Source: Psychrobacillus soli (lineage in GTDB: Bacteria > Bacillota > Bacilli > Bacillales_A > Planococcaceae). Taken from it: DNA of 64,000 nucleotides. The translations under genes and the position numbers were made by a program. The stretch is taken from NCBI RefSeq assembly GCF_006861775.1, contig NZ_VDGG01000019.1, positions 1-64,000 of the forward strand. The letters are read 5' to 3'. This document shows positions 32,072-59,841 of the stretch, one piece after another; within the stretch, counting starts at the first letter, position 1; each line of letters begins with the position of its first letter. The notes beneath the pieces are model-generated. The model was not told the origin of the DNA and ran no database searches. It worked only from the letters and a program-made list of their open reading frames with translations.

Positions 32072-32102
32072 AAGCTCCTAGTCTTTCTAGGGGCTTTTAT
32101 CG
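32072..32102 (+). terminator. Terminator of trpE-trpG
   Basis: Stem AAGCTCCTAG / CTAGGGGCTT with a 5-nt loop followed by TTAT. The T run is short, so efficiency may be modest. Confidence 0.7.
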
Positions 32103-32125: not shown

Positions 32126-32219
32126 TTAGTTGGAATTTTCGGGAGTTTAGTTGGAATTTTTGAAGGTTTAGTTGGAATTTCAGAGAATTTAGTTGGAAAA
32201 ATGAAGCCTTTAGTTGGAA
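32126..32219 (+). repeat. 21-bp-period array, family 1: five TTAGTTGGAA cores
   Basis: TTAGTTGGAA occurs at 32126, 32147, 32168, 32189 and 32210, each exactly 21 bp apart. The 11-nt spacers differ (for example TTTTCGGGAGT, AAATGAAGCCT). It lies between the trpG and leuS terminators, two convergent genes. The same core, inverted and at the same pitch, is at 59769-59841. Confidence 0.92.
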
Positions 32220-32234
32220 TAGCCAAAAAAAGTT

Positions 32235-32274
32235 AAAAAAGCTGCTTATCCCTCGAGAGGAATAAGCAGCTTTT
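32235..32274. terminator. Terminator of leuS
   Basis: Stem AAAAGCTGCTTAT / ATAAGCAGCTTTT around a small CCTCGAGAGG core. It works for the minus-strand leuS and perhaps as a backup for trpG. Confidence 0.85.
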
Positions 32275-34704: not shown

Positions 34705-34985
34705 CCTCCAATAAAAAAACTCGCCCCTTAAAAAACTAAGGGACGAGAGTATACTCACGCGGTACCACCCAAATTAGTGGAAATCCACTCAACTTGACTC
34801 CTTAACGCGGAAAACGGTATAGGCTACTTAAGTTCACCTACACAGACTCAAAGGCGAGTTCAATAATTCGTTCCGCTAACTTTCACCAACCGTCAGCTCT
34901 CTTTAGAAACGTCGATTATTTACTAATCCTTTTCACAGTCACTTCTATTAGAATTTATTCTAATGGATTTCGTCCTAAAATACAA
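34705..34985 (-). promoter_or_regulatory. Leucine-specific T-box riboswitch
   Basis: Minus strand: T-box GGGTGGTACCGCG (34770-34758), specifier loop GAACTCGCCTTTGAG with codon CTC (Leu) at 34858-34856, and a contact base T suited to A73 of tRNA-Leu. The terminator is CTCGTCCCTTA / TAAGGGGCGAG followed by seven T (34747-34713). Stem I starts around 34950. It controls leuS. Confidence 0.95.
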
Positions 34986-51954: not shown

Positions 51955-52140
51955 ATATAAAAAACCTCTCACTCACGTAATTATACATGAGGAAAGGTAT
52001 CAATTTCATAAGCACCTTTCACTCTTATCAATCAAGGAATCACACCTTGTCTCAGGTTGGGCACCTTTGTAAAAAAAAAATTACAGGTTGCCGGGTTTCA
52101 TAGGGCCTGACCCCTCCACCAGCTCGGGATAAGAGTATCC
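51955..52140 (-). promoter_or_regulatory. SAM-I (S-box) riboswitch controlling metK
   Basis: Minus strand contains the conserved core CTCTTATCCCGAGCTGGTGG, AGGGGTCAGGCCCTATGAAA and CCCGGCAACC (about 52134-52083). An expression platform with an antiterminator/terminator choice follows: CCTTTCCTCATG / CGTGAGTGAGAGG and then TTTTTT at about 51960. SAM binding should end transcription before metK. Confidence 0.96.
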
Positions 52141-58414: not shown

Positions 58415-59461
58415 TTGAAAAAAGGACTTTTATTATTTTCAGTATTCATCCTTGTTTTATTTACTGCCGCATGTGGAAATGAAGCAAGCCCAACTGAAAC
58501 AACGCAAGAAAAAGAAAATACTATTCAAGTGTATACAACGGTCTATCCTCTACAATATTTTGCTGAAAGAATTGGTGGAGAAGCAGTAAATGTGCAATCC
58601 ATTTATCCAGCTGGAGCTAATGAGCATACATTTGAGCCTACTCAAAAAGATATGATGGCACTTGCCGACGCGGATTTATTTTTCTACATAGGCTTAGGTT
58701 TAGAAGGTTTTGTTGAAAATGCGAAAAAAACATTAGCGGGCGAGCATGTGAAAATGATTGCAACTATTGACGCGGTTCCAGAAGACCAATTAGATGCTAG
58801 TACACATGATCATGATCACGGGCATGAAGAAGCAACAACAGAAAGTCACGAGCACGAGCATGAAGAAGCTACAGAAGAAAGTCATGAGCACGAGCATGAA
58901 GAAACTACAGTAGAAAGTCACGAAGGTCATGATCATGGAGATACAGATCCACATGTATGGATTTCACCAAAAATAAGTCAAAACCTAGCACTATCTATTA
59001 AAAACGAGTTTGTCGAAGCTGCTCCAGACCAAAAAGAAACATTCGAAAAAAACTATGAACAATTAATCGAAGAACTACAAAAACTAGATGCTGATTTTGA
59101 AGAAATGGCGCATGATGCACCAAACAAAACGTTTTTCGTTTCACATGCTGCATTTGGATACATTGCAAACACATATGGTCTAGAGCAGATTGCCATAGCA
59201 GGACTAAACTCACAAGATGAGCCATCTCAAAAAGAACTGACAAAAATTATCGATTTAGCTAAAGAAAAAGATGTGAAGTATATTTTATTTGAACAAAACG
59301 TATCTTCTAAACTGACAGAAGTTATCCAAAAAGAAGTTGGTGCGGAAAGTTTAGTATTACACAATTTAGGTGTTCTATCCAAAGAAGACATTGCAGATAA
59401 CGAAACATACTTCACCCTTATGAAAAGAAATTTAGACACGTTAAAAACGGTATTACAATAG
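58415..59461 (+). CDS. znuA: Zinc ABC transporter substrate-binding lipoprotein (ZnuA/AdcA type)
   Basis: 348 aa from a TTG at 58415 (AGGAG 8 nt upstream; the GTG at 58406 falls on the RBS). A lipoprotein signal ends FTAAC (Cys20). The cluster A-I domain shows VQVYTTVYPLQYFAERIGG-like sequence, GANEHTFEPT (metal His) and TDPHVWISPK, with VSHAAFGYIA and EDVKYILFEQN-type sites later. A His/Glu-rich loop (about 123-183) carries repeats of ESHEHEHEEAT. No permease or ATPase gene is adjacent, so partners must lie elsewhere. The Zur box implies zinc repression. Confidence 0.92.
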   Translation: MKKGLLLFSVFILVLFTAACGNEASPTETTQEKENTIQVYTTVYPLQYFAERIGGEAVNVQSIYPAGANEHTFEPTQKDMMALADADLFFYIGLGLEGFVENAKKTLAGEHVKMIATIDAVPEDQLDASTHDHDHGHEEATTESHEHEHEEATEESHEHEHEETTVESHEGHDHGDTDPHVWISPKISQNLALSIKNEFVEAAPDQKETFEKNYEQLIEELQKLDADFEEMAHDAPNKTFFVSHAAFGYIANTYGLEQIAIAGLNSQDEPSQKELTKIIDLAKEKDVKYILFEQNVSSKLTEVIQKEVGAESLVLHNLGVLSKEDIADNETYFTLMKRNLDTLKTVLQ

Positions 59462-59768: not shown

Positions 59769-59841
59769 TTCCAACTAAACACTCCTAAATTCCAACTAAA
59801 TGTCCCGTAATTCCAACTAACATTCTATATTTTCCAACTAG
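59769..59841 (-). repeat. 21-bp-period array, family 1 (inverted): four TTCCAACTAA cores
   Basis: TTCCAACTAA (complement of TTAGTTGGAA) starts at 59769, 59790, 59811 and 59832 (last copy ends TAG), each exactly 21 bp apart, with unrelated 11-nt spacers. It lies between the convergent znuA and menE units, as the sister array lies between trpG and leuS. Confidence 0.92.

Follow-up and report, generated by a model that had tools for sequence, protein, structure and literature searches.

Phased arrays of short cores, one of which lies at 32126..32219 (+) of the window (the whole stretch of 64,000 nucleotides of Psychrobacillus soli DNA that was analysed), are linked to one subfamily of NERD-domain (PF08378) proteins having two CxxC pairs. 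We consider it probable that such an array is a dispersed cognate array, or landing strip, of a NERD protein, with REPtron-like dispersal as its preferred role. An earlier, sequence-only reading of the window stands in so far as the array is a genome-wide, inter-operonic element. It does not stand in assuming a single core, since cores vary, and it missed the link to the NERD-domain subfamily.

According to the sequence and a core count, the array at 32126..32219 consists of five exact TTAGTTGGAA cores on the forward strand (32126-32135, 32147-32156, 32168-32177, 32189-32198 and 32210-32219) at a pitch of 21 bp. As had been described, the spacers are variable: all four spacers of 11 bp differ. 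By eye, the last core is followed by the end sequence TAGCCAAAAAAA (32220..32231, +), and ends resembling it trail many, not all, arrays of the genus. The array had also been placed outside both neighbouring terminators, and by eye it is indeed flanked by two hairpins, one terminator-like with a T-run, belonging to the upstream gene trpG (32074..32098, +), and the other with A- and T-runs, between the array and leuS (about 32235..32274); both gene names are calls of the sequence-only reading. The search of 31000-61000 against Rfam gave no family match at either array of the window, and the only gathering-level matches there were a T-box leader upstream of leuS (34736-34945, -) and a SAM riboswitch (52022-52135, -).

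The second array in the window (59769..59841, -) comprises, by core count, three exact TTAGTTGGAA cores at 59769-59820 and then one CTAGTTGGAA unit at 59832, again at a 21-bp pitch. All eight exact TTAGTTGGAA copies in the window belong to the two arrays (five and three). If one mismatch is tolerated, the count rises to 19 against an expected 8.55, and none of 100 shuffles attains 19. Comparison with relatives places the second array in a long junction, about 480 bp in the P. soli genome (59462..59941). At the same junction of several relatives the neighbouring stop codons are some tens of bases apart and the array is absent; in another (G010), a different four-unit array is seen by eye. Also in the window, a znuA-like gene has a 36-bp tandem repeat (58810-58923, 3.2 copies) that encodes a His/Glu-rich stretch.

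To see the array at its full scale, one has to look at the genome. The P. soli genome (G000; 4.23 Mb in 101 contigs) contains 45 adjacent exact TTAGTTGGAA pairs at 16 loci; spacers of 10-12 bp were permitted, and every pair is at 21 bp, while the reversed control pattern gave 0 pairs. The spacing is thus non-random genome-wide. Arrays are also present in close relatives, exact TTAGTTGGAA pairs being found in 11 of the 41 genomes searched, all 11 of them from the same genus. Neither outcome that the earlier reading had named as speaking against a functional element was therefore seen. Among the matches listed, Psychrobacillus accounts for 66 of 79 stretches, Paenisporosarcina sp. HGH0030 for four and Bacillus sp. 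FJAT-22090 for one; the remaining eight come from unrelated metagenome bins. The fetched loci hold 96 distinct arrays, in which 270 of 279 steps are exactly 21 bp. Four units are present in 32 arrays, five in 31, two or three in 30, and more than five in three. Eight of the 96, from the unrelated metagenome bins, were excluded from the analyses of end sequences, constraint, placement, folding and reading frame. Recurrent end sequences follow many last cores. In some species the first cores of an array are TTAGTTGGAA and the last two are TTAGTTGTAA (L006, L044, L053 and L090), so that the position of a unit seems to matter. At two loci, L339 (G009, contig C44) and L341 (G056), expanded arrays form mixed-spacing clusters about 0.8-1.1 kb long.

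The core itself differs between relatives. At the leuS junction, other cores are found at the same 21 bp: TTAGTTGTAA in G013, TTTACTTGC in G009 and a TTGCAC-type core in G001. Pairs of TTTACTTGC number 104 in G009, 30 in G004, 21 in G007, 14 in G008 and one in G014, with 0 in the controls and 0 in the other 14 genomes of the set. Phased triplets of TTTANTTG cores were found in 37 of the 261 genomes of the family, representing 8 of 19 genera; the reversed control gave 14 matches in 4 of the 261. The type of core tracks the leuS tree, with six changes versus a shuffle mean of 10, and none of 200 shuffles was as low. Several cores also coexist within one genome: GTTTATCGGCGAT, TTTATCCGCG, AAGTTGGGC, GGAAAGTAT and others in G125, and TTAGTTGTAA, ACGTTGTAA, TTTAATCGGCT and TTTATCGGCCA in G107. 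In genus g7 (L180, L182 and L184-L186), TTTAGTTGCGG arrays have a second array with a GGTGCGG-type core roughly 100-200 bp off, and given this closeness the two words may be used together.

The pitch was addressed by a core-blind scan over periods 8-80, which required four units that have 6 bp or more in a row in common yet are no more than 75% identical overall. In 1.67 Mb of family stretches it returned 22 arrays at period 21, five at 20 and three at 40-42, and none at any other period. A five-unit setting (5 bp common) gave 15 at 21, three at 20 and one each at 24 and 30. In 0.42 Mb of other families there was no four-unit array at 20 or 21, and one at 73. A laxer setting (three units, 7 bp common) yielded 25 arrays at 21, one of them in a genome of another family (G036), and five at 20. 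A further 28 had periods of 24 or 39-45, mostly 42, and a second sample added five at 24-45, period 21 not counted; these three-unit counts are excluded from our headline numbers. Most arrays of the scan come from G125 and G107, which were picked as TTTANTTG carriers, and one G107 stretch had been chosen to include a known array. Sampling of 32-40 kb from each of ten other genera yielded one array, and array density therefore varies much. Since both 20 and 21 bp occur and other periods of four-unit arrays are nearly absent, helical phase fits better than codons. The earlier suggestion that the cores are rows of protein sites on one face of the helix is accordingly still the likeliest reading: the periods are 21 and less often 20, and neighbouring periods have no array or a single one.

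For placement, the remaining junctions of 100 bp or more in these loci served as the comparison, with genes called from ORFs by a simple rule. Convergent gene pairs are favoured by the arrays (28 of 79 arrays versus 22 of 172 other junctions, p 7e-5) and divergent ones avoided (4 of 79 versus 42 of 172, p 2e-4). Between tandem genes the arrays are oriented with the genes in 24 cases and against them in 23, showing no bias. The arrays lie between operons: in 88 of them, the 60-bp left flanks form on average more stable folds than their shuffles (mean z -2.2 and -2.0), as terminators do. The bodies of the same 88 arrays show no such excess of folding (mean z 0.35 and 0.07 relative to shuffles). 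A hairpin at the array end was also considered, but its signal is weak (mean z -0.3 and -0.6) and the idea was dropped. Neither an orientation bias nor folding of the body was seen, which speaks for double-stranded DNA being the active form. On the same grounds, and for want of an Rfam match at the arrays of the window, an RNA element was rejected. In three genomes (G003, G008 and G010) the arrays listed fall in the origin-proximal three quarters, a tendency that is weak (KS p 0.05, 0.15 and 0.38) and suggestive only.

The claim that core and pitch outlast the spacers was borne out. Across 50 array pairs that match in both flanks, identity is 96% for cores, 67% for spacers and 73% for the 60-bp flanks. 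These 50 are the pairs out of 59 that have at least 15 spacer columns, and some are side-by-side duplicates within one genome (L044, L048, L082 and L090). The core value is inflated, because the arrays were found through exact cores; the pairs also share species. The leuS junction was fetched from 19 genomes by LeuS alone; TTAGTTGGAA-type arrays are found there in G000, G006, G016 and G011, with few changes in the cores and changed spacers. Judging by presence and absence at this junction and at that of the second array, arrays are gained, lost and kept. Constraint at the shared loci suggests that they are also kept for some use.

What connects these arrays to a protein is the gene found beside them. 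The gene between two arrays encodes a NERD-domain protein both in G000, where it lies at C16:36958-38001, the core is TTAGTTGGAA and the protein has a relative of 85% identity, and in P. lasiicapitis, and a NERD gene also adjoins the array cluster of G056. By coordinates, arrays adjoin the group-A gene in G000, G006, G013, G016, G007, G014 and G003. NERD genes are multi-copy in the family and are found in 76 of 81 genomes versus 2 of 14 control genomes. Among 30 NERD loci fetched with the Pfam model, seven have a phased repeat. The 30 fall into two groups: in the array-type subfamily a 20- or 21-bp array is present at the gene end in 6 of 6 loci, compared with 1 of 24 other NERD loci, and that single case looks like coding sequence. 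A profile of the array-linked NERD proteins finds, at E<=4e-54, 14 distinct loci, all with a 20- or 21-bp array no more than 150 bp from the gene, although several of these loci had been selected for their array; if fragments of two broken genes are set aside, the next profile score is 1.6e-26. Four of the six array-type genes helped to seed this profile, and the two non-seed genes score 2.5e-63 and 3.6e-54. At E<=1e-20 the profile matches 183 of 200 genomes sampled from the order, and the genomes listed all belong to this one family.

Five further loci were picked by NERD coordinates, and four have an array (G012, G001, and contigs C22 and C46 of G009). The array on C46 is a 21-bp tandem of 11.8 copies with 92% matches according to Tandem Repeats Finder and was missed by the period scan; the NERD gene on G009 C44 has no array within about 330 bp. 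The one G005 NERD gene examined has an array as well (1 of 1). In sum, arrays are present at 11 of 12 distinct NERD loci picked without regard to arrays, although these loci are not all independent, as the G012, G001 and G005 genes are orthologues of the G000 gene. With the same detector settings, 29 of 501 tiled 3.3-kb windows of the family and 1 of 128 of other families were positive, as were 5 of 19 leuS loci and 2 of 19 menE loci. Fragmented NERD genes next to apparently intact arrays were seen in G003 (C1:2989930-2990905) and at L053.

The array-linked protein has about 310-350 residues and combines a nuclease-like NERD domain with two CxxC pairs and a C-terminal region that is conserved. 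All ten NERD proteins compared with Pfam match NERD (PF08378), nine array-linked ones at 59.7-71.7 bits versus a cut-off of 22.1, and none of the ten matches a HuH transposase family. Twelve aligned members have in common GxxGE, D108, E121, K123 and Q155 in the NERD part, cysteines at 259, 262, 272 and 275, and, in the C-terminal region, a stretch with the pattern ITNREFxxFxGIxSxxxAxxLLxxL...RxYxL. From the alignment, we read the conserved NERD residues as a putative active-site set, the four cysteines as a probable zinc ribbon and the C-terminal stretch as a possible winged helix. The C-terminal region matches no Pfam family, the best match among solved structures has an E value of 0.17, and a structure model of the NERD protein built from three sequences has a pLDDT of 38.

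The next issue is whether a particular protein goes with a particular word. In G012 and G001, dispersed GATTGTMGTAAA arrays were detected by the core-blind approach before the NERD genes were examined, and GATTGTMGTAAA arrays were later seen beside the group-A orthologues. Thus, the core beside the NERD gene is the same as the core dispersed in the genome in three cases: G000 (TTAGTTGGAA), and G012 and G001 (GATTGTMGTAAA). Compared with the G000 protein, those of G012 and G001 show 55-57% identity and go with GATTGTMGTAAA instead of TTAGTTGGAA, so that protein and word have changed in parallel. Protein pairs at 76, 62 and 52% identity have the word wholly or partly in common. For 13 proteins, identity and word similarity are related by the Mantel test with Pearson correlation (0.31, p 0.007) but not with Spearman (-0.04, p 0.61); the relation rests on the closest pairs and there is none for pairs of lower identity. 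Among 19 genomes, TTAGTTG[GT]AA arrays are present in 8 of 8 that have a group-A gene of at least 60% identity and in 3 of 11 others (p 0.003). In genus g7, nine genomes with TTTANTTG arrays have 7-11 profile matches and 35 without have 0-7, kinship being ignored. The correspondence has its exceptions. G010, G011 and G017 have 7, 7 and 13 exact TTAGTTGGAA pairs and are without a close group-A gene. None of the three NERD genes found in G009 has TTTACTTGC beside it, leaving the 104 TTTACTTGC pairs of that genome without a partner among them, and a predicted likeness of the G009 C44 NERD protein to that of G056, which has TTTACTTGC arrays, failed. Another idea, that cores decay after loss of the NERD gene, looked fitting from the exact pairs (31 of 39 in G003, 7 of 21 in G010), but was dropped because the G003 gene is itself in pieces and three-mismatch counts across the genus do not follow it.

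Several known kinds of repeats resemble the arrays in part. Plasmid iterons are direct repeats near 20-22 bp beside the gene of their binding protein, but they mark one replication origin, whereas the arrays are scattered over the chromosome and go with a NERD gene. BIME-2 elements, which are gyrase sites, are similarly placed near gene 3' ends and between convergent genes, but are built of palindromes. CRISPR loci have repeats and spacers of roughly 20-40 bp together with cas genes; cores of 10 bp with spacers of 11 bp do not agree with this. STAR elements of Staphylococcus are, like the arrays, interspersed intergenic direct repeats of unknown function with a short fixed core and spacers. 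However, their core is a 14-bp GC-rich T(G/A/T)TGTTG(G/T)GGCCC(C/A), their spacers are at least 40 bp and often nearly identical within a locus, and different species do not have loci in common (PMC3532100). The arrays instead have 10-bp words, mostly differing 11-bp spacers, loci that different species have in common and a linked gene, and TTAGTTGGAA with its 11-bp spacers is not a STAR element. Beggiatoaceae have short intergenic direct repeats too, namely TAACTGA in sets of two to six copies; these are single-word heptamer repeats, and in the passages on them no linked nuclease is reported (PMC4679880).

The closest likeness is to REPtrons, in which a TnpA_REP (RAYT) gene is accompanied by cognate REP elements, and for which repeats and protein are said to have co-evolved and several families are known (PMC8266576). 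In both systems the gene of a nuclease-like protein lies beside cognate repeats, most of which are dispersed between genes (PMC8266576); a gene beside repeats that are also dispersed is what we found in G000, G012 and G001. The differences concern two defining features. The protein is a NERD-domain protein here, as judged by the ten proteins compared with Pfam, and a HuH tyrosine transposase there; the repeats are non-palindromic and direct, at 20-21 bp, here, and folding palindromes preceded by a tetranucleotide such as GTAG there. The NERD-array pair thus works like a REPtron but is not one.

The same observations have to be weighed against other explanations. The arrays could be chromosome-organising or topological sites, that is, phased bent DNA bound by a host protein unrelated to NERD, with NERD genes as one kind of neighbour; gyrase-binding BIMEs and nucleoid-occlusion sites would be the models. 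The preference for convergent and avoidance of divergent gene pairs is consistent with this, as are the origin-proximal arrays of three genomes and a bend of 61 degrees per 84 bp in the wedge model, versus 38 in shuffles. However, any tolerated insertion would show the same placement, the origin bias is weak, and shape alone leaves identical 10-bp words at 16 loci and several words per genome unexplained. The NERD linkage would in addition be a coincidence. We regard this explanation as unlikely. Selfish or neutral minisatellites, or short coding repeats of seven codons, in either case without a protein partner, are considerably less probable still. Adjacent spacers are identical in some arrays (L016, G063 and G009 C46), 21 is divisible by three and 47 of 64 arrays can be read through in one frame; yet spacers within an array mostly differ and are far less conserved than cores between arrays, orientation bias is absent, 20-bp arrays exist and no frame is open in all 64. 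Repeated coding sequence was rejected on the latter ground, the best frame being open in only those 47.

It is also conceivable, though rather unlikely in our view, that the same NERD-array pairing serves defence or self-recognition, the arrays holding or marking the nuclease and the word being a private address of the lineage. NERD domains are known from defence proteins, all 12 members have the motif residues D, ExK and Q, and paralogues and dialects diversify. The array-linked proteins also match PglW, MAD6 and NERD-helicase models weakly and in the NERD part only, but these matches are far below the curated cut-offs and reflect the common domain only. Viral contigs provide no support either: one of three patterns matched none, the two others matched 11 and two, and none of these 13 loci has a phased array. 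A phage-borne origin was rejected on the same data.

We therefore return to the dispersed cognate array of a NERD protein as the preferred explanation. The pitch, the dialects, the stronger conservation of cores than of spacers, the linkage of the arrays to the NERD subfamily and the identity of the core beside the gene with the dispersed core (G000, G012 and G001) are observed. Binding of the cores by the NERD protein, its cooperativity and a spread of the arrays through the protein's nuclease activity are what we infer. Each NERD protein would read a 10-bp core, and copies of the protein would pack every two helical turns, lining one face of the DNA in a regular row of typically four or five units. 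Paralogous NERD proteins, each with its own core, might give rise to the several array types per genome and to the dialects among relatives. Cognate arrays would usually lie at one or both ends of the gene and same-core arrays elsewhere between operons, as REP elements do around and away from RAYT genes, the NERD nuclease having presumably spread them, in the favoured role as part of a REPtron-like pair, into tolerated places between operons. Most dispersed arrays are indeed not next to a NERD gene; among the loci analysed we found no signs of array movement such as target duplications. A wider formulation, to which we would give an even chance, is a two-part system in which NERD proteins have private 10-bp words at two-turn spacing, both next to the gene and over the whole chromosome, a paralogue and its arrays change their word together, a genome thus has several private codes of protein and array and each species a dialect, and the nuclease copies, spreads or guards the arrays.

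Our results suggest an undescribed pairing of a nuclease-like protein with its own genomic landing sites. Searches of an open-access library found no description of NERD proteins paired with phased arrays. Since the spacers differ and ordinary repeat finders score such arrays low, they are easily passed over. As none of the known kinds tested fits, the pairing may be viewed as categorically new, or as a variant if all dispersed repeats with a linked gene are taken as one kind. If the proposed explanation is true, the multi-copy NERD subfamily of this bacterial family would gain a candidate DNA target. The pairs of protein and word, having changed in concert in many lineages, would also constitute a natural data set in which DNA-binding specificity evolves in step with dozens of sites, and the system would represent a second, unrelated solution to the REP/RAYT design.
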